A stretch of DNA of 64,000 nt. It comes from Desulfobacterales bacterium (GTDB lineage: Bacteria; Desulfobacterota; Desulfobacteria; Desulfobacterales; JAIPEE01). Both the position numbers and the translations under genes were made by a program. Position 1 is the first letter of the stretch, and each line of letters begins with the position of its first letter. Below are positions 27,112 to 41,892 of the stretch, in pieces. Below the pieces are notes generated by a model. It saw only the letters and a program-made list of their open reading frames with translations, was not told the origin of the DNA and ran no database searches. The stretch covers positions 1 to 64,000 of the forward strand of contig JAIPEE010000009.1 of NCBI GenBank assembly GCA_021737275.1, given 5' to 3'.

Positions 27112-28263
27112 CTACCGAACATTAGGATTAACGAAAACCTGATAAGGATATCTGGAAAGAGCCTCTTCATTAATCTCCACTCCTAAGCCCGGGCCTTCCG
27201 GTAAACTTAAGTAACCACCCTCAACATTAAACGGATTTACTGAAATTTCATCACTTCTGTCCTTGAAATTACAGAAGTATTCCAGAACAAGAAAATTTGG
27301 TATGCATGCCGAGACGTGCAGAGAAGCAGCCAGACCGATAGTGTTACTGTTATAATTATGGGGTGAAACAGCAACTTGATATGGCTCAGCCATAGCCGCA
27401 ATTTCCTTCAACTCCAAGATACCACTACAACACACATCAGGATTAATAATATCTGCCGCTCTTTTTTCAAATACTTGCCGGAAGTCTGACTTGGTATAAA
27501 GTGCCTCTCCGGTTACTATGGGAATATTTATATTTTTCTTTACTTCCGCCAAATCATCTAAATTATCAGGTGCAACAGGCTCTTCGTACCAGAAAGGATT
27601 AAACTTTTCCAGCATCTGAGCCGCCCTGATAGCATTCGACGGCGATAGTATGCGATAGACATCAATCATCAGATCAATATCCGAACCAATCGCCTCTCTC
27701 ACTGCCCTGACTCTCTCAATGGCCAATTGCACTTGCTGCTTGCTGGTATAGGTTTCTTTCAAACCCAAACCGTCGAACGGGTAAAATTTTAGCCCTTTAA
27801 AACCGCTTTCTATTACTTTTGCAGCCTTATCAGCAAACGCCTCAGGTGTGTCAGAATCTTCCCACCATCCATTTGCGTATACTTTAATTTTATCCCTGCA
27901 GGATCCACCCAGTAGATTATAGACTGGTGTATTAAGCCATTTGCCGGTGATGTCCCAAAGAGCCAGCTCTATACCACTAATAGCACTAAAATAATCCATG
28001 GACCGTTGTCTGTCAGCATAATCTTCGTACATAACCGTTGTAAAATGCTTGATATTTAAGGGATTTCGGCCAACAAAGTACTTTCCAATATGATCCACAT
28101 AGGCTGCAATGCTTCTCTCACGATCCAATAAAGTGTGACATTCCCCCCAACCGTGTATCCCCTCATCAGTCTCTACCTTTATCAATAACCAATTCTTGGT
28201 GTCGCCAAGATCTACAGTAACACCGGAATCTACAAAAAAAGTCTTTATATCAGTAACCTTCAA
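27112..28263 (-). CDS. Enolase-superfamily sugar-acid dehydratase-like protein
   Basis: Mandelate racemase/muconate lactonising enzyme family, 383 residues. The N-terminal capping domain (KVETDEGIHGWGE; SAISGIELALWDITGK) is followed by a TIM barrel with metal ligands in DLMIDVYR, WYEEP and TGEALY, and a histidine in SPHNYNS on the late strand. Galactonate- or related sugar-acid dehydratase activity is likely, but the general-base set is not fully diagnostic. The start is TTG with AGGAG 8 nt upstream. It lies downstream of the MttB operon, after a terminator. Confidence 0.85.
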   Translation of the reverse strand: MKVTDIKTFFVDSGVTVDLGDTKNWLLIKVETDEGIHGWGECHTLLDRERSIAAYVDHIGKYFVGRNPLNIKHFTTVMYEDYADRQRSMDYFSAISGIELALWDITGKWLNTPVYNLLGGSCRDKIKVYANGWWEDSDTPEAFADKAAKVIESGFKGLKFYPFDGLGLKETYTSKQQVQLAIERVRAVREAIGSDIDLMIDVYRILSPSNAIRAAQMLEKFNPFWYEEPVAPDNLDDLAEVKKNINIPIVTGEALYTKSDFRQVFEKRAADIINPDVCCSGILELKEIAAMAEPYQVAVSPHNYNSNTIGLAASLHVSACIPNFLVLEYFCNFKDRSDEISVNPFNVEGGYLSLPEGPGLGVEINEEALSRYPYQVFVNPNVR

Positions 28264-28435: not shown

Positions 28436-28476
28436 ACAAAAATAAAGAGATTGGGCCATTAAATCGGCCCAATCTC
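28436..28476 (-). terminator. Terminator of the MttB/PotD-like operon
   Basis: An 11-bp perfect stem (GAGATTGGGCC / GGCCCAATCTC) with an 8-nt loop, followed on the minus strand by TTTATTTTT. It lies 36 bp after the binding-protein gene. Confidence 0.9.
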
Positions 28477-28511: not shown

Positions 28512-29654
28512 TTATCTTTTCAGTTCTGCCCAAATTTCCAACCTGAGTTCCTTACCTTTACCGGTAATCGCCCTTTCTTCTTCTGATTCACACTTTTCCA
28601 TGTACCCCTCAGGCAATATAAATCCAGGCCATGCTTTCATTTCATCCGACATGAACTCCATCGTATGTTTATGAGTAGGCGGGTAACCAATCGTCGAAAT
28701 CAGGAAAACATTAACTTCCGGGCGAAAAATATAGTTCAGAAACAGATGAGCTGCTGCCGGGTGTTTCGCGCCGGTAGGAATAAAATCAGTACTTGCTGCA
28801 ACAAAAGTACCTTCTTCAGGCAACACTGCTTTCAATTCAGGCAAATCCTCATGATGAACTAACCATGCATCTCCATCCCAAGTTTCAGATACCCAGGCAT
28901 CTTCTTCAACCCAGGTCCTTCTCGGCATTGAATCATAAGCCATTACTCTCGGCTTCTGTTTCAGCAAAAGGGCTTTTGCTTCCATCAATTCTGATTCAAC
29001 ATCAGAATTCCAGGAATACCCGAGAGACTTCAACGCAGCGCCAACCACACTATACATATTGTCAAGCATGGTAATTCTGCCGGCGTATTTTTCATTTTCA
29101 AACAAAAATTTCCAAGTATTAAACCCGGGAACGGTATCATCAACATATTTAGAATTATAGCACCAAAGTGTTGAATAACCGGAATCTGGGATTTGGTACT
29201 TGTTACCCGGATCAAAAGTTCTTTTTGTATAACCCTCTATCATGTATTCTGTTATATTTGGAAGCCAATCATAATTTAAATTTGTAACAACACCCATAGG
29301 CCTCAACACCATTGCATTTGCAGGGCTGGCACCCAGCACAATATCATATTCTGATTTGGGGTTAAGTTTGAACTTTGCTACCATTTCTTCAGTATCAGAG
29401 TAGTAATCAAAAATGACATCCACACCAAATTCTTTTGAAAAATTGTCGAATAGCTCCTGCGGCCACCACTCAGCCCAGTTATAAACATATAGCTTGCTGC
29501 CTTCTTTTTTTACCGCATCCAAACATTCCTGGGGAACAGGAAAATCTTTATATTTGGGTTCTGCAGCGTTTAATGGACCAACAATAATACCCAGTACAAA
29601 ACTCATTGCAATCAGGACGATTATTCCACTTTTTTGTAAATTTAATTGTTTCAT
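28512..29654 (-). CDS. PotD-like polyamine-type ABC substrate-binding protein
   Basis: Periplasmic solute-binding protein of the spermidine/putrescine (bacterial SBP 1/8) family. It has 380 residues with an N-terminal signal peptide (about residues 1-31, ending LNAAEP). The pattern SKLYVYNWAEWWPQELFDNFSKEFG, cut here as WAEWWPQ, and the C-terminal FIPTGAKHPAAAHLFLNYI are typical. Tryptophan-rich segments (WAEWW, WVEEDAWVSETWDGDAW) could form an aromatic box for a quaternary amine or polyamine. Start chosen at 29654 behind GGAGGGAAGG. No ABC permease or ATPase gene is adjacent. Confidence 0.85.
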   Translation of the reverse strand: MKQLNLQKSGIIVLIAMSFVLGIIVGPLNAAEPKYKDFPVPQECLDAVKKEGSKLYVYNWAEWWPQELFDNFSKEFGVDVIFDYYSDTEEMVAKFKLNPKSEYDIVLGASPANAMVLRPMGVVTNLNYDWLPNITEYMIEGYTKRTFDPGNKYQIPDSGYSTLWCYNSKYVDDTVPGFNTWKFLFENEKYAGRITMLDNMYSVVGAALKSLGYSWNSDVESELMEAKALLLKQKPRVMAYDSMPRRTWVEEDAWVSETWDGDAWLVHHEDLPELKAVLPEEGTFVAASTDFIPTGAKHPAAAHLFLNYIFRPEVNVFLISTIGYPPTHKHTMEFMSDEMKAWPGFILPEGYMEKCESEEERAITGKGKELRLEIWAELKR

Positions 29655-29777
29655 TTGCCTTCCCTCCATGTGGTGATTTAATTTATAATGGTTTTTTTGG
29701 ATACAGAGCTGCCTCCTTTCTTTATTAGTTTAGGAAAATATAAATTTTCCTAAACTAAATATTCATTTTTTTGTTTG

Positions 29778-31238
29778 TTATTTATCTGATCTTTTTGCTT
29801 CACAATCAGCCGATGCCAGAATACGATCCAGTTCAGTCAAGACTTTTTCGGGCAGTGGCTCAGGGTGATGAAATTCGTCAATTCTTTTAAACTCTTCCAG
29901 AGCTATTTCAAATGGATCTCGAAAACTGCCATCATCATTTTTCTTTCGAAGCAAGGGGGACAGTCGAAAATCACGGAGATGATTTATTGTGTGTCGTTCT
30001 GTTAAGAAATGGCCACCCGGTCCCACTTTATTAATAACGTCCAATGCCATGTCGATTCCGTCACTGTCTAAACCGTGCAGCTCGTCATAAGCTCGCCAGC
30101 AAATCTCATGGTCGAGAATTAATTTCTCTGGTGAAAAAGTCATTGCACCTTCCGTCATTCCCATATGGCCGCCGATCTCGGCTGCTGTTAACGGAATAAA
30201 AGCCGATCCCAGGCCGCCTTCCATACCGGATTGCCAGCCATTATCAGGGGCATCGGTATTTACACCTCCCGCACCAAGGCTGGGAACACCCCATGCATGG
30301 GCAAGCTGAGTGGAAATTATTTTGGTGGGGGCCGAATTTACACCGATGTAACCGCCAGTATACGGATCCATCATAGCTACATGCACCGCATGAAACACCG
30401 GGGCACCGGGGAAGGCCAGTTGAATCAAGGTCATAGCACTGACCACCTCAGCGTCTCCCATTATTAATGCACCAAAAGGTGCTGCTGGAGCAGTTGATCC
30501 CATGATCGGCATGGAGAAAAAACTCACTGGAATTCCCGCTTCAGCATAAATTAGTGCCGACTCAATACCGTGGGCATCATGGGATAATGGCGAAATCGTA
30601 CATATGTTGGCATTAACTGGCGGGCGGGACTTAAGTGAGTCGGTATTTCCGGCCACAATGGTCGCCATCTCGACAATATACCGGGCCAGATAAGGTGGGA
30701 CGGTTGTACCACCGCGTACGTGTTTCAGTGTATTCGTCAGGCCGGCATAACAATCATGTAACTGTGCTGTAATTCCGCAATCTTGCGATGTGACCATAGG
30801 CCAATAAAAACCGATTAAAGGTAAAGCATCGCTGATTCTCGCAGATCGCTCCACATCTTCTTTGCACGAAGATCTTTTTTGGCGAGAATGTGGATCGATA
30901 ACGTGTACACCACATCCTTCCGTGCAAAGGTAAGAGCATTGTCCATCAAGAACCAGATCGAAACGTTCTTCTCTCCCGGCAAGGACAAAGGAGCGTGGTG
31001 CCGTTGACATGGCTTTTAACACCAGATCAGGGGAAATACGGATGACACCCGTATCCATGTCTACTCGTGCACCGTTATCGGCAAAAATTTGGAGAACTCG
31101 TTGCGATGGGAAACAGACCCCGACTTCATCCAGCAAGCTGAGCGTCCCATTTTTCAGAGTGTCAATTTGTGTCCGAGTCAGAAATTCACCCCTTAAAGGT
31201 GATTTGAAACCGATGATATCCGGTGTTTTTGAAAACAT
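29778..31238 (-). CDS. MttB-family trimethylamine methyltransferase-like protein
   Basis: A 486-residue member of the MttB superfamily, whose members demethylate methylamines and quaternary amines, passing the methyl group to a corrinoid protein. Family features include the N-terminal LLDEVGVCFPS, the central glycine-rich ATP-independent barrel, and the C-terminal HFLTERHTINHLRDF. The frame is uninterrupted, so it is not the pyrrolysine-containing TMA type but the non-Pyl type, such as glycine betaine or proline betaine demethylases. The start at 31238 follows GGAGGAG. It lies between a flavoprotein and a PotD-like binding protein. Confidence 0.88.
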   Translation of the reverse strand: MFSKTPDIIGFKSPLRGEFLTRTQIDTLKNGTLSLLDEVGVCFPSQRVLQIFADNGARVDMDTGVIRISPDLVLKAMSTAPRSFVLAGREERFDLVLDGQCSYLCTEGCGVHVIDPHSRQKRSSCKEDVERSARISDALPLIGFYWPMVTSQDCGITAQLHDCYAGLTNTLKHVRGGTTVPPYLARYIVEMATIVAGNTDSLKSRPPVNANICTISPLSHDAHGIESALIYAEAGIPVSFFSMPIMGSTAPAAPFGALIMGDAEVVSAMTLIQLAFPGAPVFHAVHVAMMDPYTGGYIGVNSAPTKIISTQLAHAWGVPSLGAGGVNTDAPDNGWQSGMEGGLGSAFIPLTAAEIGGHMGMTEGAMTFSPEKLILDHEICWRAYDELHGLDSDGIDMALDVINKVGPGGHFLTERHTINHLRDFRLSPLLRKKNDDGSFRDPFEIALEEFKRIDEFHHPEPLPEKVLTELDRILASADCEAKRSDK

Positions 31239-31319
31239 GCGATCTCCTCCATTCAACATCCAACCCGTTTAATACATTTGTTATTTTGGGTGGCAATGAT
31301 CTAAAAAAAGCAATACTAC

Positions 31320-32918
31320 TTAGCGGCGTTTCTTCTTCTTTAAGTCAGCAATAACTACCCTGGCTGCATTATGACCTGGTGCACCTGTCACACCGCCGCC
31401 AGGATGTGACCCTGAGCCGCAAAGATAAAGATCCTTAATAGGCGTTCTGTATTGAGCCGCTTCAGGATGCGGCCTAAAACTGAAAAGCTGGTCAAGGTCA
31501 TGTTTCCCATGGAAAATATCAGCTTCTGTAAGCCCATATTCCCTTTCGAGATCCAACGGGCTTATCATATTTCGGCCGACAATCAGTTCACGAATATTAG
31601 GCATTGATTTTGACAGGTAATCAATAATCTGATCTGTAACATCCTCTTTGATATCATCCCATGATGTATTATCTGCCAGTTCATAGGGATAATATTTTGC
31701 CAGAATACTCATGACATGATGACCGGGAGGTGCCAGTGTATCATCTACTGTAGAAGGCATTACAATTTCAAGGCGAGGTTCCTTTGGCAGCTTACCAACT
31801 GCTGCCGCAAAGTAATTTTCTTCCATTCCCTTAATGTCTGAAAAGATACTAATATTTGAGCGATGCCAGGGGCCTTCTTTTCCGGATTCGAAGAAACGGA
31901 TATCCGGCAAACCTTTCAATGCAAGATTAAGCTTCAAGGAAGAGTGTCCCATACGAATTTGTTTAATATCTTTTGCAAACTCTGAATCAAGGTGTTTTTG
32001 GTCCATCAATTTTAGAAATGTTCGTTTAGGATCAGTATTGGCCATTAAACAACGGGCACTTATCGTTTCACCATTTTCAAGCAGCACACCGGTTGCCCGG
32101 CCGTTTTTAATGATAAACGCTTTAACCGGTGCCTCAGTTCTGATCTCTACACCTTTAGATCGGGCAAATGAGGCCATGGCCTGCGTAATACCACCCATGC
32201 CGCCCTTCACAAGACGCCAGGCACCCAATTCTCCATCCAGTTCACCAACAGCCATATGGAAAAAGGGAATGGCTGATGAGGGTTGTTTCAGACTGGCATA
32301 ATTGCCGGAAAAACTTGATGATGCATACATATTCTTTACCATCGGGCTTTCAAACCAGCGTTCAATCAGATCGTATGCACTGGTTGTAAAAAGCTGGAAC
32401 AGGCGATGGCGATTTTCACCAGAAAGTTTTCGGACTTCAAGTCCCATTTTACCCAGAGAAATCAAATCCGATATGCCGACATTCAGTTTTGGCGCTTCCA
32501 TCAGCATTTGCTTTCGGATAACACTTCCTGCCGCCTGAACCATTGCATCAAATTTTTTCATCGCATCATAATCACTGCTGGAAAACCGTCCGACTTCTTT
32601 TCGGTTATGATTTTCATCATCAGTCATAAACAGATAATCATCATTACATATACACAGGTTTCCGGCAGTCTTAATAGTACTGTAACCATGCTTTTTAAGT
32701 TCAAGGTCCCGGGTTACTTCATCCCGCAGGAGGCTCACTACATATGAAATCGTAGAGAGACGATATCCGGGATGAATCTCTTCAGTTACAACTGCTCCGC
32801 CTACCATGGATCGTTTTTCAAGAACGAGTGTTTTAAACCCGGCTTTTCCCAGATAACCTGCTGCCGTTAATCCATTGTGTCCGCCGCCAACGATAATTGC
32901 GTCATATGCTTTAGCCAT
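31320..32918 (-). CDS. PYROXD2-like FAD-dependent oxidoreductase
   Basis: A 532-residue flavoprotein of the phytoene-desaturase/amine-oxidase-like group. The FAD-binding Rossmann motif is at residues 6-35 (IIVGGGHNGLTAAGYLGK ... VLEKR), followed by GGAVVTEEIHPGYRLS. The C-terminal FAD motif is LYLCGSGSHPGGGVTGAPG. It sits between the two MttB-like genes in one operon, so oxidation of a methylated amine or its product is a reasonable guess, but this is inference. Confidence 0.87.
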   Translation of the reverse strand: MAKAYDAIIVGGGHNGLTAAGYLGKAGFKTLVLEKRSMVGGAVVTEEIHPGYRLSTISYVVSLLRDEVTRDLELKKHGYSTIKTAGNLCICNDDYLFMTDDENHNRKEVGRFSSSDYDAMKKFDAMVQAAGSVIRKQMLMEAPKLNVGISDLISLGKMGLEVRKLSGENRHRLFQLFTTSAYDLIERWFESPMVKNMYASSSFSGNYASLKQPSSAIPFFHMAVGELDGELGAWRLVKGGMGGITQAMASFARSKGVEIRTEAPVKAFIIKNGRATGVLLENGETISARCLMANTDPKRTFLKLMDQKHLDSEFAKDIKQIRMGHSSLKLNLALKGLPDIRFFESGKEGPWHRSNISIFSDIKGMEENYFAAAVGKLPKEPRLEIVMPSTVDDTLAPPGHHVMSILAKYYPYELADNTSWDDIKEDVTDQIIDYLSKSMPNIRELIVGRNMISPLDLEREYGLTEADIFHGKHDLDQLFSFRPHPEAAQYRTPIKDLYLCGSGSHPGGGVTGAPGHNAARVVIADLKKKKRR

Positions 32919-33020: not shown

Positions 33021-34475
33021 TCAGGTTGTGATTACTCCGATTTTTTTTAAAACTTCATCAATCCGCTGCCGGGTTTCTTCCGGTAGCGGATTTGGTTGAT
33101 GTTCGGCCAAAATTTTCCTCAGATCTTCATCAATCAGATCAAACAGATCTTTTTTCCCTTTCTGTTCCCACTCCTCCACATTCAGCATTTTAAAATACCT
33201 GGGTAGCCACAGTTCAGTTCTGCAGTGCTGAACTGTATGTCGCTCAGCCAGGTAATCAGATTTTAGGCCCACTTTTTTTAAAACATCCATAGCCATCGTG
33301 TCCTCATTGATCTCAATGCCTCTTTCCATACGGCGAATGAACCCGGCCAGTTCATGGCAGTAAAGAAGTGCGTGAAAGGAATAGGTCATACTTGCTTCTA
33401 CATTGCCCAAAAAGTAGGCTTCATCCGCACCACTGTAATAAGCATGCATCATTGAAGAAGCTATATCAGTAGCACAATTCTGGTCAAATATCGGGGAAAC
33501 ACTGCTCCCGGCACCGCTTACAGCCGGCAAACCGAGTGACTTGAAAATCTGTATTTTGGCCAGTTCGCCTAAAAAGAATTCCGGTTTTCCTCCAAAATTA
33601 CCGGTTCTGGGGTCCATAAACTTTATTTCTGAGCTGCTCAGGCAACAACAACCTTTTTGAATGAGCTGTCCAAGTACAAACAGGGCAAAATCAGTGGCAA
33701 TACAAGGGAGAAGACTTCCGGCAATGGTCATTGGGCTTGTTGCCCCGGCAATAACAATACTGCCGGAGTTAAGCGGAATGCCGTTTTCAATAGCCAGAAA
33801 GATCTGATCAATTTCTTTTTGACTAAAGTAAAGCGGCATTTGCGTGACACTATAGGAAAAATACGGTTTTTCTTTTAGGTTATCTAACCCACCCCGAATG
33901 GCAGCAGCGATCTCAATGGCGGCTTCAAGCGACTCAACATATTCAGAAATATATGTTATCGGCTTGGTTGTATTTGAGGCGATCACGTTGAATTCGTCAA
34001 TCTCCCCATAAACATCCGATCGCTCGACAATTTTACAAGACTGACTGATGCCGTCAATGAACGGCAGCGCATCAACAACACGGGCAACGGTGGCAAGATC
34101 TTCCCTGGTGCTTGAGCGACGCTTTCCGGTTTCAATATCAATCACGTTAATGCATCCCATGCCCGCAGTAAAAGACATTCCCGGAACATTAACCGGATTG
34201 CCATTCCGATCCCAGAGGCAAACCTCTTTTTCAACAGAATCAAGGCTTTCTTCGACAAGATCTCTGTGAATTTTTACAACACCGTCACCTGAGACGTCGC
34301 AACCTGCTGCTGAAAAGAGATCCAATGCTCTCGGGTCCGGATCGAACCGAACGCCGACTTCGCGCAGAAGTTCATAAATACCATTTATAATTTTATTCAT
34401 ATCTTTTTTCGATAGGATTTGAGGAGAGATATTTGCGCCAAAAGAATTCGCTCTTTTTCCCATGTTGTTATCCAT
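33021..34475 (-). CDS. Second MttB-family methyltransferase-like protein
   Basis: A 484-residue paralogue of the MttB-like protein at 29778-31238. It shares LLREVGVRFDPDP near the N-terminus and SDYLAERHTVQHCRTELW near the C-terminus, but the middle is divergent. No in-frame amber codon. The start is either 34475 or 34463; neither has a good ribosome-binding site, and the frame continues upstream through the operator, which is unlikely to be translated. It is the first gene of the operon controlled by the promoter and operators at 34536-34616. Confidence 0.86.
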   Translation of the reverse strand: MDNNMGKRANSFGANISPQILSKKDMNKIINGIYELLREVGVRFDPDPRALDLFSAAGCDVSGDGVVKIHRDLVEESLDSVEKEVCLWDRNGNPVNVPGMSFTAGMGCINVIDIETGKRRSSTREDLATVARVVDALPFIDGISQSCKIVERSDVYGEIDEFNVIASNTTKPITYISEYVESLEAAIEIAAAIRGGLDNLKEKPYFSYSVTQMPLYFSQKEIDQIFLAIENGIPLNSGSIVIAGATSPMTIAGSLLPCIATDFALFVLGQLIQKGCCCLSSSEIKFMDPRTGNFGGKPEFFLGELAKIQIFKSLGLPAVSGAGSSVSPIFDQNCATDIASSMMHAYYSGADEAYFLGNVEASMTYSFHALLYCHELAGFIRRMERGIEINEDTMAMDVLKKVGLKSDYLAERHTVQHCRTELWLPRYFKMLNVEEWEQKGKKDLFDLIDEDLRKILAEHQPNPLPEETRQRIDEVLKKIGVITT

Positions 34476-34535
34476 TTTTTGGTAATATTTATGTCTTGAA
34501 AAACTTAATAAGAGACGAGCTAATGATTTATTTAA

Positions 34536-34556
34536 AAAGGAATAAACTATTCCTTT
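34536..34556. promoter_or_regulatory. Operator copy 1 (TetR-type palindrome)
   Basis: Palindrome AAAGGAATA-N3-TATTCCTTT. It overlaps the predicted transcription start of the MttB operon. It is the reverse complement of copy 2, including its central three bases. Confidence 0.75.
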
Positions 34557-34562
34557 ATTTTG

Positions 34563-34590
34563 TGTATAGCAACCTGAATTCATTTGTCAA
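34563..34590 (-). promoter_or_regulatory. Promoter of the MttB operon
   Basis: Minus strand: TTGACA (34585-34590), 16-nt spacer, TATACA (34563-34568). The promoter fits exactly between the two palindromes, with copy 1 at the start site and copy 2 abutting the -35. Confidence 0.6.
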
Positions 34591-34593
34591 GAC

Positions 34594-34616
34594 AAAAGGA
34601 ATAGTTTATTCCTTTT
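34594..34616. promoter_or_regulatory. Operator copy 2 (TetR-type palindrome)
   Basis: Palindrome AAAAGGAATA-N3-TATTCCTTTT, centred 59 bp from copy 1. It lies just upstream of the MttB-operon -35 box and about 95 bp before the tetR start, so it could serve both divergent transcripts. Confidence 0.75.
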
Positions 34617-34708: not shown

Positions 34709-35350
34709 ATGAACAAGGGACTTGAACAAAGGGCAAAACCAAAACAAGATAGGGCAATAAAAACCTATGAGCTGATTCTCAAAACTTCGGCTGAACTGTT
34801 AGTGGAAGTTGGTTTAGAACGATTTTCCACGTTCATCGTTGCCGAAAAAGCGAATTTGAGCATGCGAAGCGTTTACCGTTACTTCCCAAATAAATTATCG
34901 ATTATCAAAGCCCTGGCCGAACAATATTTCGAAAGAGATTTGCAGATCCTGGACGGCAGATATGATTCATTAAAGAATTTGGACATCAACTTCGTGGAAG
35001 CATTAGAGGTTATTATAGTATCCTACTATGAAATGGTGTCAACTGACCCGACTTACATGGCTATCAAAAAAGCTTTCACCGGTAGCCAGGAATTAATGGA
35101 ATATGAAGAACAAATAAATCAGAAGTATGCAATTGAACTGGCAAAAGCACTAAAAACCAGAATGCCTAAAATTAGTGACAAAAAACTGAAAATTATCAGT
35201 ATGAACATTATGGATGTTTCTGATACGATGATTTATCGGGCACATAAATATTTACATTACCATAATGATAAGAAAAGTGCGACTGAAATTATCGAGGAGT
35301 TCAAGCTAATGTTGAGAGGTTATATAGCAAGTCATTTAAATCAGAATTAG
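34709..35350 (+). CDS. TetR-family transcriptional regulator
   Basis: A 213-residue repressor-type protein. The N-terminal helix-turn-helix occupies about residues 15-60 (TSAELLVEVGLERFSTFIVAEK ... RSVYRYFPNKLSIIKAL). The C-terminal ligand domain is not assignable to a ligand class. I use the ATG at 34709; an upstream GTG at 34667 keeps the frame but lacks a ribosome-binding site. It is divergent from the MttB operon, with twin palindromes in the intergenic region, and is the probable regulator of that operon. Confidence 0.9.
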   Translation: MNKGLEQRAKPKQDRAIKTYELILKTSAELLVEVGLERFSTFIVAEKANLSMRSVYRYFPNKLSIIKALAEQYFERDLQILDGRYDSLKNLDINFVEALEVIIVSYYEMVSTDPTYMAIKKAFTGSQELMEYEEQINQKYAIELAKALKTRMPKISDKKLKIISMNIMDVSDTMIYRAHKYLHYHNDKKSATEIIEEFKLMLRGYIASHLNQN

Positions 35351-36010
35351 CGTTTACATGCCCGTGTATTGGAATATTTCCTCACTATGGGAGTTACGTA
35401 CACGGACTGTTTCACCATATTCTGGAGGCGTATCAAATGGTTGGTAATGCATTGTCATACTTTAGTGTTATAATAGTAAATTCAAAATAAGACTTTTTTC
35501 ATACTTTCCGCTGATTGACTGTTGAAGAATCTTTGATAAGGGTAAATTTATTAATCGCCATAATGCGTTGTTTTGATGCCGTTTCTTTCAGCAGTACCTG
35601 ATGACTGTTTCAAATGAACATGCTTAGCAATACATTAAGGCCCAATAAAGCCGGTATTCGGAATCTGCATTTATGTTGCTGTTATTTATATAATAAAGTA
35701 AACCAACGAATACACAAAGCTGAAATTCAGCCTAATTCATTTTCAAAAAACAAGTTCTCCAAAATGAATGCTGCACGCCCTCATTTTGAAGGGTTGAATT
35801 AAGCTGAAACGAAAAGTAATAATTTTATGTTACAATGATTATTTTTTCAGAAGTATACACCTTTTAATATTTATCAGTATCACATGGGAGGTAGAACAAA
35901 TTGGGCTGAAACGTTAGATGAACACTCAAGTGTTATAGGGTTTAGATGAATGGCCTGTTTAAGGAAATAATAACGACGTCTTTTTTTGACTTTTAATGAA
36001 GGAGGATAAT
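35351..36010. other. Gene-free interval before the PEP-CTERM gene
   Basis: About 660 bp of AT-rich sequence with no supported gene. A 62-codon frame at 35614-35802 lacks a ribosome-binding site and family resemblance. I looked for a GG-N10-GC sigma-54 promoter, common upstream of PEP-CTERM genes, and found none convincing. Confidence 0.5.
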
Positions 36011-36616
36011 ATGAAAAAACTTTTGGCAACATTTATAATGGTATGTTGTGTGGTTGGCATGGCAGGGACAGCAAGTGCTACCATTTTAGATTTTGAGGGA
36101 CTTATAGCGAATAGTGTAGAAGATTTGACGTTGAATAATCAGGGCTATGGTGGTTTTTCATGGGATAGCGGGTGGTATCTTTATAATGACAACGATTATT
36201 CTACTCCTGCACACTCTGGAGATTACGGTATTGTGAATAATTTTGGCAACAATCCCTTAGGGCTTATGATCAGCAGCAGCAGCGCGTTTGATTTCAATGG
36301 CGCATGGATCGCCGGATGGAGTTTTAATTCCCCTTCACAAATCAAGGCACAGGGTTTTGATCAACTGAACAATTTAATCGGTGAAACTTCATGGATGCCG
36401 GTGACCGCTGGTATCAACAGCTACCTTGAGGCAAACTTTACCGATGCGTATCGTGTTGATTTCCTGGGCGGCGGGTATTTTACTGTGGACGACTTTACTT
36501 TTAATGCCTCTTCATCAACTCCTGTACCTGAACCTACGACCATGCTGCTTTTAGGGATAGGTCTTGTCGGCCTTGCTGGACTCAGAAGGAAGAAGCAACA
36601 AGAAATAAAGGTGTAA
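36011..36616 (+). CDS. PEP-CTERM sorting-domain protein
   Basis: A 201-residue exported protein: signal peptide (residues 1-25, ending ASA), a beta-rich middle (FDFNGAWIAGWSFNSPSQIKA in part) resembling secreted carbohydrate- or matrix-associated PEP-CTERM proteins, and a C-terminal sorting signal with VPEPTTMLLLG, a membrane helix and an RRKK tail. Exosortase would cleave and attach it. The start at 36011 has GGAGG 8 nt upstream. No exosortase or EPS genes are in this window. Confidence 0.9.
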   Translation: MKKLLATFIMVCCVVGMAGTASATILDFEGLIANSVEDLTLNNQGYGGFSWDSGWYLYNDNDYSTPAHSGDYGIVNNFGNNPLGLMISSSSAFDFNGAWIAGWSFNSPSQIKAQGFDQLNNLIGETSWMPVTAGINSYLEANFTDAYRVDFLGGGYFTVDDFTFNASSSTPVPEPTTMLLLGIGLVGLAGLRRKKQQEIKV

Positions 36617-36756: not shown

Positions 36757-38070
36757 TCAGACCGTTTTTTCCACAAAGTTGATGTTCTGTTTTTCCAGAC
36801 CTGCCAGTACGGGTTCATAGATATCTTTTGTAATGGGGATAAGGATTCCTTTACGATTAATTTCTCCTTCCGCCATCAGCTTAATTCCAATAGCGAGCGG
36901 CAGGCTGACAGTCCTGGCCATAGATGAATCACCATGGGGAATCCCATAATCAATAAGCGTTGAGGTGATGGTCTGTTTTGACTTATCCTTATTTTCAACC
37001 ACAAAGGTATGTTTAAGAATAATCATATCTTTTTCACCTTCCTGATACTTTAGCCTTTCCAACAGTCTTTCACTCAAAATATCCAGCCTGTTATCAGCGT
37101 CCGGAACCTTATCTTCAGCGAAGAGTCCTAACCAGTCGAGATTGTTGATAACAAAATGATCTATAGGAAGTCCTGCTTTTTCTGCTATTTTTGCAACAAC
37201 GTCATCGGATTCGCTGACGCCGGCAATATCTGCCATCATTTTACGATAGGAGTTTCCTTTCAAGTCAGGATTGACAGCGTCATCCACCAGGCCTAAATCA
37301 ACCATCTTCTTAAGCGTGTCGCACCAGCCGACATATCGATATGTTCCCCGCATGACTGTTTCAGCATCTTTTAAACCGTAAATCTCTTTGTATGGTATGG
37401 AATCCCTGTTGGGGAAGACCTCGAAGTCGCCCAGACCTTCCACGTTTTCAATCCGTTTGTTTAAAAACAGATCTTTACCTTCAATATTGATCTCTTTTCC
37501 GTTTTCAAGAAATCTGGCGGGATTTTTTGATGCCAAAACCACACCTTTAGGACTCCAGGAGAATTTGTAGCCGAAAGGATTATCATTGTCATCCGGTGCA
37601 GGCAGACCGCCGCAAATGGAATAGAAATGTTTGATTTTACCGCCATCCGAATGGACCCGGTCAATAATTTTCATGGCTGACATATGGTCGGTTCCGGGAT
37701 CCACACCAATTTCATTGAGAAATGTCAGGCCACTGCTTTTGACATCGCTATCAAGTTTTTTCATATCCGCACTGACGTAGGATGCCGTGGCCATGTCTTT
37801 ATTGTTTTTCAGGCAGCATTTTGCCACTGTAACGTGGTGAATCCATGGCAACAGGCTGACGGTAATATCGTGTTCCTTTATCAGTCTTTCCAGCATATCG
37901 CTGTCTTCGACGTCAAATTGAAGTGCTGTCCCGTTTTCAAAGCCCTGAACAATCCCCTGAGCCTTTTCGACCGTTCTGGATGCTACGGTAACTGAAAATT
38001 TGTTTTCCAGCAAAAAAACCACGCCGGGTTTACTGACCAGTCCTGCGCCCAAAATTAATATTTTTTTCAT
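36757..38070 (-). CDS. Saccharopine dehydrogenase (glutamate-forming)
   Basis: NAD(P)-dependent oxidoreductase of 437 residues that splits saccharopine into glutamate and aminoadipate semialdehyde, resembling the C-terminal SDH half of animal/plant AASS and yeast Lys9. Rossmann motif GAGLVSKPGVVFLLE at residues 8-22; family hallmarks LLPWIHHVTVAKCCL, NEIGVDPGTDHMSAM and GLPAPDDNDNPFGYKFSWSP. It is 9 bp downstream of the lysine-ketoglutarate reductase-like gene, reproducing the two halves of AASS as separate, adjacent genes. Confidence 0.9.
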   Translation of the reverse strand: MKKILILGAGLVSKPGVVFLLENKFSVTVASRTVEKAQGIVQGFENGTALQFDVEDSDMLERLIKEHDITVSLLPWIHHVTVAKCCLKNNKDMATASYVSADMKKLDSDVKSSGLTFLNEIGVDPGTDHMSAMKIIDRVHSDGGKIKHFYSICGGLPAPDDNDNPFGYKFSWSPKGVVLASKNPARFLENGKEINIEGKDLFLNKRIENVEGLGDFEVFPNRDSIPYKEIYGLKDAETVMRGTYRYVGWCDTLKKMVDLGLVDDAVNPDLKGNSYRKMMADIAGVSESDDVVAKIAEKAGLPIDHFVINNLDWLGLFAEDKVPDADNRLDILSERLLERLKYQEGEKDMIILKHTFVVENKDKSKQTITSTLIDYGIPHGDSSMARTVSLPLAIGIKLMAEGEINRKGILIPITKDIYEPVLAGLEKQNINFVEKTV

Positions 38071-38079
38071 TTCGGCTCC

Positions 38080-39384
38080 TTAAATATAGTGTTTCATGTA
38101 CGCATAATCATCTGTTAACTCACCGTTATGCAATATTAACGCTTTTTTAATCGGGTACGGCAACTCAATGTCTGACAATGATTTTTTAAAATCGGCAGAT
38201 ACAATATCATTGGCATACTCTTTCAGTACATTAGAAAAAAAGATGGACGACTCCATCGAAAATTCACAGGGAAGATTGTCCACGGCCATCACGGTAACAC
38301 CTTCGCTTATAATGGCATCTTCATACGTATCAGCCTCAGGCAGATAGGTATAACAGGCGTTATCAGGCATGGTACTTTCCCTGGTAATTTCAATTGACCC
38401 TTCAATATCACAGCTGATATCACCGATGACAGACAGCTTACTTGAAACGCCTGATTTCATATCGTCTTTTAAACCCTGTTTTGTTACCAGCCGAGGATAT
38501 TTTTCCGTCCAGTAGATGCAGTTGACCAGGATATCCAGATGCCGCAGCAGATCAGGCATCACTGAGTCATAGTTTTCCGGGTGGTCATAGTAGTTCCGGA
38601 GATCGAACGAACCGGATTTCGGTTTGACCAGATCTTTTTCCCGGAATTCGACCTTATACAGATAGCGGGTTTCCTGAATTCCGCTTTTTCTGAGACTTTC
38701 CAGCTCACTTGCTTTAATTGTTTTGACCGGCAGAAGATCAAAAATCTCCTGAGCGCCTCCGGAAACATTTCCATAACCGGCAAATCCGACTACCAGTGGA
38801 CACATCTCTTTGGGTAAACCGGTTTGACTGATCTCAGTTCCAATTTTTTTTATATGATCTTTTGCACTGTTCAGGTCATCATATTCAAAGGCCTGTTTAA
38901 TTTTTATCAGTGGAGATTCGAGACCCCTCAACTTCATTTTTTGACCGAATGCATGCAGGGTTTCAATGATCCCGGCATATCCGGCATGCATTCCGAAAAA
39001 AATAAGACGCTGGTTTTTTTCATTTACAATGCGCTCGTAATCAATCAGGTTGCATTTGAAAGACATCAGCTTTTTCAGCATACCCATGTTATAGGGCTGT
39101 CCTTTGATAGTATGGGAGAAAAAGATATAAGTCTTGTTCTCAACCAGCAGGTCTACAGGTATTTCTTTGACCGCAAAAATAGTATTAGCTTCGCTTAAGT
39201 CTTCTGTAATCCGTATACCTTTTTCTTTAAAAGCTTCATCGCAATAAATCCTGAGCTCAGATGGCTGGACCAGAGCCTGGATGCCATAATTTTCCTTTAG
39301 TTCCAACAGGTGGTCGGGAATGATAGGAACCCTTCTTTCCCACCTGTTTTTATCTTCACGTCTGATTCCAAGTACTTTTTTCAT
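38080..39384 (-). CDS. Lysine-ketoglutarate reductase-like protein (AASS N-domain)
   Basis: A 434-residue protein of the alanine dehydrogenase/PNT superfamily. It matches the LKR half of eukaryotic AASS: IRREDKNRWERRVPIIPDHL at the N-terminus, FSHTIKGQPYNMGML, FGMHAGYAGIIETLHAFG, and a dinucleotide-binding GFAGYGNVSGGAQEIFDLLP. It would condense lysine and 2-oxoglutarate into saccharopine. With the SDH gene immediately downstream, a saccharopine route of lysine catabolism (or lysine formation in reverse) is implied. Confidence 0.87.
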   Translation of the reverse strand: MKKVLGIRREDKNRWERRVPIIPDHLLELKENYGIQALVQPSELRIYCDEAFKEKGIRITEDLSEANTIFAVKEIPVDLLVENKTYIFFSHTIKGQPYNMGMLKKLMSFKCNLIDYERIVNEKNQRLIFFGMHAGYAGIIETLHAFGQKMKLRGLESPLIKIKQAFEYDDLNSAKDHIKKIGTEISQTGLPKEMCPLVVGFAGYGNVSGGAQEIFDLLPVKTIKASELESLRKSGIQETRYLYKVEFREKDLVKPKSGSFDLRNYYDHPENYDSVMPDLLRHLDILVNCIYWTEKYPRLVTKQGLKDDMKSGVSSKLSVIGDISCDIEGSIEITRESTMPDNACYTYLPEADTYEDAIISEGVTVMAVDNLPCEFSMESSIFFSNVLKEYANDIVSADFKKSLSDIELPYPIKKALILHNGELTDDYAYMKHYI

Positions 39385-39971: not shown

Positions 39972-40904
39972 CTATACAACCCAGACAGATCTATTGCTTA
40001 TCATGCGAATTATCTTTTGGGTGACGCACCCCATCAGGTGCTCTCTGATTTTAGACAATCCCTTTCTTCCCATTACAATTGTATTATAATGTCCATTCCG
40101 TGCTTCTGTAACAATAGTAACTGTTCGACTCAAAGAACCGGATATAATTTCAGTTGTAATCCGATCTTCCTTAAATCCATTTCTCATTAATCGGCGTTTG
40201 GCCTCACCGAAAAGGTGTTTTACCTCTTTATATTTATTTTCTGAGTTTTCTGATGCAAAGTACAGTATAGGCGGGTTAGCCAGACGATCCGGATTGCCTC
40301 TGATCACAAAGAGCAGATTAATATTATATTCATAATTACTCAATATTGCTGAAAGATAATCCAAAGCCCGAAAAGCACCTTCTGACCCGTCGAAAGCCAT
40401 AAGAATGTTTTTGCTCGGAAGAAGTGATCCAATCATTATAACCGGCATAAAATTTATTTTATCAATAATTTTATTCGCAATGCTGCCCATGAAAATGTCC
40501 TGATGAATACCCGTACCTTTTCGGCCTATTAAAATGGCATCGTAACTATTCCGGGCTTCATCTATAATATCGCGGGCAATGCCTTTATTTTTATTTTGAA
40601 CTTTTATAGTTATCGCTTCTTCAGAATAGTTTGCATTTATGAGAAGATCTTTCGCTTGCTGTAAATATTCAGTAATATCAGATCGCATCCGGCTTTCCCA
40701 ATCGAGGACACCTTTGTCCAATTGAAATAGATGCGGATCTATTTCAAGATCAAAATAAGGCTCCGGTGCTTTAGAAAAAACATGAAACAAAACCAGCTTC
40801 ATTTTATGAAACGCTTCAAACTCAGATAAATAACGAATTACATTTAAGGCATAGTCGGAACCGTCAAGTGCGACTAAATATTTTTTTTGTGATGTTTTTC
40901 CCAT
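39972..40904 (-). CDS. Tandem-domain universal stress protein (copy 2)
   Basis: A 310-residue cytoplasmic protein of two UspA domains. Domain 1 starts with KYLVALDGSDYALN and contains LIGRKGTGIHQDIFMGSIA; domain 2 starts NILMAFDGSEGAF and ends VMGRKGLSKIREHLMGCVTQKI. The G-x2-G-x9-G[ST]-type nucleotide loop is degenerate, especially in domain 2 (MGCV). It is a clear paralogue of the gene 55 bp upstream and probably cotranscribed with it. Confidence 0.9.
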   Translation of the reverse strand: MGKTSQKKYLVALDGSDYALNVIRYLSEFEAFHKMKLVLFHVFSKAPEPYFDLEIDPHLFQLDKGVLDWESRMRSDITEYLQQAKDLLINANYSEEAITIKVQNKNKGIARDIIDEARNSYDAILIGRKGTGIHQDIFMGSIANKIIDKINFMPVIMIGSLLPSKNILMAFDGSEGAFRALDYLSAILSNYEYNINLLFVIRGNPDRLANPPILYFASENSENKYKEVKHLFGEAKRRLMRNGFKEDRITTEIISGSLSRTVTIVTEARNGHYNTIVMGRKGLSKIREHLMGCVTQKIIRMISNRSVWVV

Positions 40905-40959
40905 AACTAAGTCTCCTTAACTAAGCCGTAACATTCTGCGTGGCGTATAATTTTTTGTA

Positions 40960-41892
40960 TCAAATTATCCAGACAGCCCTGTTAGAGATTAGTCTGATAA
41001 TTTTTTGGGTAACCTGTCCCAGTAAAAATTCTCCCACCTTTGAGTGCCCTTTTCTGCCAATTACTATTGTCCCGTAATTCCCTTTTCGGGCCTCTCTTAC
41101 TATTGTAACTGACCGACTGAACTTATCTGAAATTATTTCGGCAGTAATCTGTTGAGGCCCAAATCCTTTACTTATTAATATGTTTTTTGCTTTTTTAAAA
41201 AGTGATTTAACCTCCTTTTTAATATATTTTGAGTAACCGATCGGCAAATAAAGTATGGGCAAACTTATCTGATATTCCGGGCGGCCGCGTATAACATGAA
41301 GCAAGTTTACCTTGTAATCGCCCCCTCCTGCCATTGATCCTGTAAAACCAACCGCACTAAATGATTTTTCAGAACCATCAAAAGCAATCAGGATTTGCTT
41401 ATTATTAGAAATCGTACCAATCATTAAAACAGGAACCGCTGATAATTTATCAATGATCTTTGTTGCAACCCCTCCAACAAGAATCTCATTGTAAACACTC
41501 ATACCTTTACGTCCGATTAACAGGGCATCGTATCCTTTTTTAGCTTCATTAATTATATCAAGCGCGATTTCTTTTGTTTTATGTTGGATTTTTATACGAA
41601 TTGCCTCTTCAGGAATGCCTGATTCAACCAACATTTGTTTGGCTTTGTTCATATATAGTTGTATTTTATCTTGATTTGATTTTTCCCATACTTTTATCCC
41701 TTTCGGGAGATCACTACATTGAGATGGCGTTTCAAAATCACCATATAGTTCAGGAAATTTTCCAATAACATGAAATAAAATTATGGATTTTCTATGCAAT
41801 GGTTTAAAATCACAAACATAATGAACAACATTAAGCGCGTAATCTGATCCATCTAGTGCCAATAAAATTTTATTATCTAAAGAATTTTTCAC
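40960..41892 (-). CDS. Tandem-domain universal stress protein (copy 1)
   Basis: A 310-residue protein with two UspA domains (ILLALDGSDYALN; ILIAFDGSEKSFS), the same length and architecture as its downstream neighbour. Both end in an ISNR-[SA]-VW motif. The loops are RKGMSVYNEILVGGVAT and GRKGHSKVGEFLLGQVT. It is the first gene of the pair, 60 bp downstream of a sigma-54-type promoter and divergent from a histidine kinase/NtrC-type pair. Confidence 0.9.
   Translation of the reverse strand: MKNSLDNKILLALDGSDYALNVVHYVCDFKPLHRKSIILFHVIGKFPELYGDFETPSQCSDLPKGIKVWEKSNQDKIQLYMNKAKQMLVESGIPEEAIRIKIQHKTKEIALDIINEAKKGYDALLIGRKGMSVYNEILVGGVATKIIDKLSAVPVLMIGTISNNKQILIAFDGSEKSFSAVGFTGSMAGGGDYKVNLLHVIRGRPEYQISLPILYLPIGYSKYIKKEVKSLFKKAKNILISKGFGPQQITAEIISDKFSRSVTIVREARKGNYGTIVIGRKGHSKVGEFLLGQVTQKIIRLISNRAVWII

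Follow-up and report, generated by a model that had tools for sequence, protein, structure and literature searches.

The window (the whole 64-kb stretch of DNA analysed here) contains a 233-bp intergenic region from which a gene for a TetR-family regulator and an operon headed by an MttB-family methyltransferase gene are read in opposite directions (Table 1). No in-frame TAG is present in either of the two window MttB genes, and their proteins score 281–301 against the TIGR02369 cut-off of 525; they are therefore members of the wider MttB superfamily only, and not the pyrrolysine-containing trimethylamine methyltransferase (MttB proper). The 4.26-Mb genome (104 contigs) encodes 33 MttB-family genes, ten of which have a single in-frame TAG, which suggests that these ten use pyrrolysine. 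A perfect palindrome, GATTGGGCC-ATTAAATC-GGCCCAATC (window ~28447–28476), between the PotD-like and enolase-superfamily genes is a possible terminator or operator.

Table 1 Features of the MttB operon, its promoter region and the divergent tetR gene (window coordinates).
Feature	Coordinates	Strand	Remarks
Enolase-superfamily (mandelate racemase/sugar-acid dehydratase-like) enzyme, possible operon gene	27112..28263	-	
PotD-like solute-binding protein, probable operon gene	28512..29669	-	
Second MttB-family methyltransferase, probable operon gene	29778..31259	-	
FAD-dependent amine-oxidase/desaturase-like protein, probable operon gene	31320..32918	-	
First operon gene, MttB-family methyltransferase	33021..34475	-	Pfam MTTB 1.2e-61; start 34475 or 34463
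Proposed operator O2	34536..34556		AAAGGAATA-AAC-TATTCCTTT (+ strand); centre 34546
MttB-operon promoter	34563..34590	-	TTGACA 34590-34585, N16, TATACA 34568-34563; sequence read directly
Proposed operator O1	34595..34615		AAAGGAATA-GTT-TATTCCTTT (+ strand); centre 34605
tetR, proposed repressor of both operators, 213 aa	34709..35350	+	Pfam TetR_N, TetR_C_22

The tetR gene begins with an ATG at 34709 on the plus strand, just after AGGAAGGA, and is divergent from the MttB operon. Its product matches Pfam TetR_N (PF00440; 1.2e-8, 35.1 bits, cut-off 24) and PF17928 (31 bits, cut-off 26.4). The AlphaFold2 model (mean pLDDT 94.3) places the helix-turn-helix (HTH) helices at residues 41–47 and 52–58, and its fold matches in the PDB are TetR-family regulators. 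The protein thus combines a TetR_N HTH with an all-helical ligand domain, and a palindromic site adjoins or is divergent from the gene both here and at related loci, as in TetR-family systems. By alignment, its reading-head residues F42, S51 and M52 correspond to Arg28, Glu37 and Gln38 of TetR. No promoter could be assigned to tetR when the plus strand was inspected by eye; from the proximity of O1 we infer that tetR would be autoregulated through this site. Further along the window are a gene for a secreted protein with a PEP-CTERM-type tail (VPEPTTMLLLGIGLVGLAGLRRKK; 35996–36616), a saccharopine-dehydrogenase-like gene adjoining an AlaDh/PNT-domain gene (36757–39384; a possible lysine-saccharopine pair), and genes for two neighbouring universal-stress-like proteins that resemble each other, both 310 aa long (39972–41892), apparently a tandem duplication.

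O2 (34536–34556) reads AAAGGAATAAACTATTCCTTT and O1 (34595–34615) is its exact reverse complement, with the mutual complementarity spanning 22 nt (34535–34556 and 34595–34616). The arms of the two sites are separated by 38 nt; measured from start to start, or from centre to centre, the sites are 59 bp apart. In the window, O1 and O2 are the only matches at ≤3 mismatches, whereas dinucleotide-shuffled versions of the window give a chance expectation of 0.11. When the 233-bp intergenic region was shuffled (first order), one perfect palindrome with 9-bp arms and a 3-nt loop turned up in 0.6% of copies, and two in 0.02%. Across the whole genome only O1 and O2 match with <3 mismatches, and matches with 3 mismatches are at the control level. 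A chance origin was rejected on these window, genome and intergenic-shuffle statistics, and a repeat element or genome-wide regulon was rejected as the sites are unique in the genome. The inverted centre (AAC/GTT) is real in the window and is not kept at the other three twin-operator loci described below; a functional role for it was rejected on that ground, and the mutual inversion is probably incidental.

The MttB-operon promoter lies on the minus strand between the two palindromes. It has an extended -10, with a TG separated from the hexamer by a single base (TGC-TATACA), and the -10 itself is imperfect, its final base being A in place of the usual T, which is why a consensus scanner did not list this promoter. 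The centre of O1 is 15 bp upstream of the first -35 base, so that a bound dimer would abut the -35, and the centre of O2 is 17 bp downstream of the -10, over the predicted transcription start. The longest MttB open reading frame begins at an ATG at 34583, within the DNA between the operators. The start of a paralogue (MGKK...) indicates 34475 or 34463 instead, and the 34583 start was rejected in favour of these; with the start so placed, both operators would be non-coding. The earlier note had described, from the letters alone, two palindromes inverted with respect to each other including the centre, 59 bp apart (correct for the centres), with TTGACA-N16-TATACA between them and a divergent TetR gene, and all of this was borne out; the genome-wide motif scan that it proposed is the one reported above.

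A second TetR in the same genome (G000:C61), 59% identical to that of the window, is divergent from an operon for an FAD oxidoreductase of the DAO type and for an MttB that shares 72% identity with the window's first MttB. In the intergenic region of this paralogous switch, the palindromes AAAAGGGAGCGATACTCCTTT and AAAAAGGGAGCATTAATCCCTTTTT flank TTGACA-N18-TATTAT. They (AAAGGGAG...CTCCCTTT) are related to those of the window and occupy the same positions around the promoter, and a genome scan with their motif returned the two intended sites and one unrelated match with 2 mismatches. A further MttB gene (L011:6682-8205) is convergent to the paralogous tetR, which thus has amine-catabolism genes or operons on both sides.

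Two further TetRs (34–35% identical), one of them from Desulfatibacillum alkenivorans, were found in other families of the order. Both are divergent from a saccharopine-dehydrogenase-like gene, with twin AAAAGGGAG...CTCCCTTTT-type palindromes around TTGACA; as the same layout stands beside a different cargo gene, it travels with the TetR and not with MttB. A saccharopine-dehydrogenase-like gene is thus common to the neighbourhoods of the distant TetRs and to window 36757–39384. All four twin-operator loci have TTGACA at the same place, bracketed by two palindromes with the O1 centre 15–16 bp before the -35 (15, 15, 16 and 15 bp for the window, the paralogue and the two distant loci). The distance from the -35 start to the O2 centre (44, 46, 45 and 47 bp) tracks the promoter spacers (16, 18, 17 and ~17; the -10 of the fourth locus, TAGCCT, is weak). 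The distance of each operator to its own promoter element is therefore constant, which favours two separate steric blocks over looping.

A scan of the collection yielded 80 further TetR relatives. Loci were taken by a fixed rule (tblastn E ≤1e-18 and a best GGnAG-nnn-CTnCC-type site score ≥8, with the third base unscored), and the window's sites entered the set by their palindromes. A total of 21 loci were readable under this rule, and several distant relatives have no recognisable palindrome. Residue 51, at the start of the recognition helix, is Arg at all 13 loci with a GGG half-site, three of which (L053, L063 and L065) have a non-G in one of the two half-sites, and is Gly, Ala or Ser at all eight with GGA, including the window (Ser). 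The third half-site base thus fits the recognition-helix residue in 21/21 loci under the fixed rule (Fisher 4.9e-6), and one weak relative, L106, is off-rule (Ser, with T/G at the third base). In an unsupervised ranking of all alignment columns, residue 51 came first for the third base and residue 42 first for operator length (15 vs 16 bp). Residue 42 (K or F vs N) tracks the 15-bp odd or 16-bp even centre in 21/21 loci, and on the tree this changes about twice.

Both positions are known to matter in related proteins. Arg52 and Gln53 of AmtR, equivalent to Glu37 and Gln38 of TetR, are recognition-helix positions important for DNA binding (PMC2723105), and window residue 51 corresponds to TetR Glu37 via the AmtR/TetR table of that paper. 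The equivalent of window residue 42, TetR Arg28, is a base-contacting residue (PMC7102968). With the HTH columns excluded, the best tree puts the changes in residue and in base on four branches, always concordantly, and the change of the window relative to its paralogue is one of the independent contrasts. Only two contrasts lie on branches with strong support, too few for a formal sign test on the phylogeny to become significant, and the association is suggestive in this respect. The covariation links the TetR to the palindromes indirectly.

The 21 loci define a TetR subfamily (R-x-x-P-x-Q-x-R-A...Y-R-Y-F-P-N-K) with GGGAGTATATACTCCC-type operators, which shares with the window protein the reading head, the N-terminal arm and a palindromic site near a divergent gene. 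Most of its distant members carry a single site of 16 bp with an even centre, whereas the window clade has two 15-bp sites, and the window half-site GGAAT is unique. Upstream of tetR at L053 and L066 there are two closely packed or overlapping GGGAG-type palindromes, which differ from the promoter-bracketing pairs of the window clade. No relatives were found on viral contigs, plasmid tblastn gave 28–44% identity throughout among the matches listed, and none of the literature matches listed was a regulator paper for the GGGAGTATATACTCCC site.

We propose, with a probability of about 0.85 on the sequence comparisons above, that the divergent tetR gene encodes a repressor of the MttB operon for which the two palindromes serve as twin operators. 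One TetR dimer on O1 would sit directly against the upstream side of the -35 and a second on O2 would cover the transcription start, so that together they would block RNA polymerase at the promoter; each operator would be placed by its distance to the promoter element that it blocks, not to the other operator. The earlier note had suggested the same two dimers over the -35 edge and the start site, and had held that palindromes missing at related loci would speak against it. They were found at the paralogue and at both distant loci, and the layout shared by these three loci, together with the covariation of recognition helix and palindrome, backs its suggestion.

The palindromes by themselves name no protein, and they could serve another, unlinked regulator with tetR as a bystander. 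We consider this very unlikely, as twin palindromes accompany this TetR clade even beside a different cargo gene, changes in their sequence go along with changes in the recognition helix of the TetR next to them, and sites unique in the genome fit a local regulator. A DNA loop or a cooperative filament formed by two TetR dimers, in place of separate roadblocks, could likewise be imagined, given that four loci have twin sites similarly spaced. That spacing (59–62 bp) however follows the promoter spacer (16, 18 and 17 in three of the four) and keeps no fixed helical phase, and ~60 bp would demand strong bending, which makes this arrangement improbable.

The chances are slimmer still that O2 works as an RNA hairpin at the transcript start, controlling stability or translation, with O1 incidental. 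O2 does coincide with the 5' end expected for the transcript, and its fold in isolation has an energy of -7.0 kcal/mol, but such folding is expected of any perfect palindrome, and O1, which is upstream of the -35 and untranscribed from the MttB promoter, is better conserved in position than O2. An RNA hairpin or Rfam element is also unsupported by the fold of the whole leader, which is unremarkable (z -1.49), and by an Rfam search, which gave no match.

With separate blocks by two TetR dimers as the preferred reading, release from both operators would be brought about by a small molecule, most likely an amine or betaine-type substrate of the operon; binding, repression and ligand release are all inferred here. 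Genes neighbouring the subfamily members mostly encode amine or amino-acid enzymes (DAO-type and flavin amine oxidases, class-III aminotransferases, as well as alanine dehydrogenase and the methylamine dehydrogenase heavy chain), and a P450 gene neighbours one member of a clade in which residue 51 is small. This context, together with MttB, makes an amine or betaine plausible as ligand. The cargo (MttB family, amine oxidoreductases) hints at amine ligands, and a response to choline or betaine, as in BetI-type TetRs, would be conceivable.

A TetR switch with twin operators is an already-known kind of system. In Tn10, the repressor gene is divergent and tandem tetO1-tetO2 sites overlap the promoters within one intergenic region. 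The window switch resembles it in the divergent repressor, the two ~15 bp odd-centred palindromic operators and the HTH fold, and differs in that the two repressors are related in sequence at the family level only, the two window operators stand around a single promoter at set distances from its -35 and -10, and the cargo is a methyltransferase catabolic operon. The likeness to AmtR of Corynebacterium glutamicum lies in the equivalent recognition-helix positions that matter for DNA binding (PMC2723105), whereas its operator, cargo (nitrogen control) and effector mechanism are different.

What is new is the subfamily residue-base rule and the duplicated, apparently insulated pair. The reading heads of the window TetR and its paralogue differ by K42F, R51S and I52M, all four window half-sites are GGAAT vs GGGAG at the paralogue (two bases per half-site), and each site type is essentially confined to its own promoter in the genome. 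The pair probably arose by duplication of one repressor-operator switch, after which the window TetR and all four half-sites would have diverged together. Judged from these differences in residues and sites, cross-reaction between the two paralogous switches is unlikely. We lean towards the view that they form a naturally insulated, orthogonal repressor pair for two MttB operons, under a subfamily-wide rule in which Arg51 pairs with G and a small residue with A. TetR-DNA pairing is rarely predictable from sequence, and this subfamily offers a testable rule of one residue and one base. The duplicated pair in one genome shows a possible route to removing cross-talk, and the switch would provide a regulatory handle on MttB-type demethylation operons.
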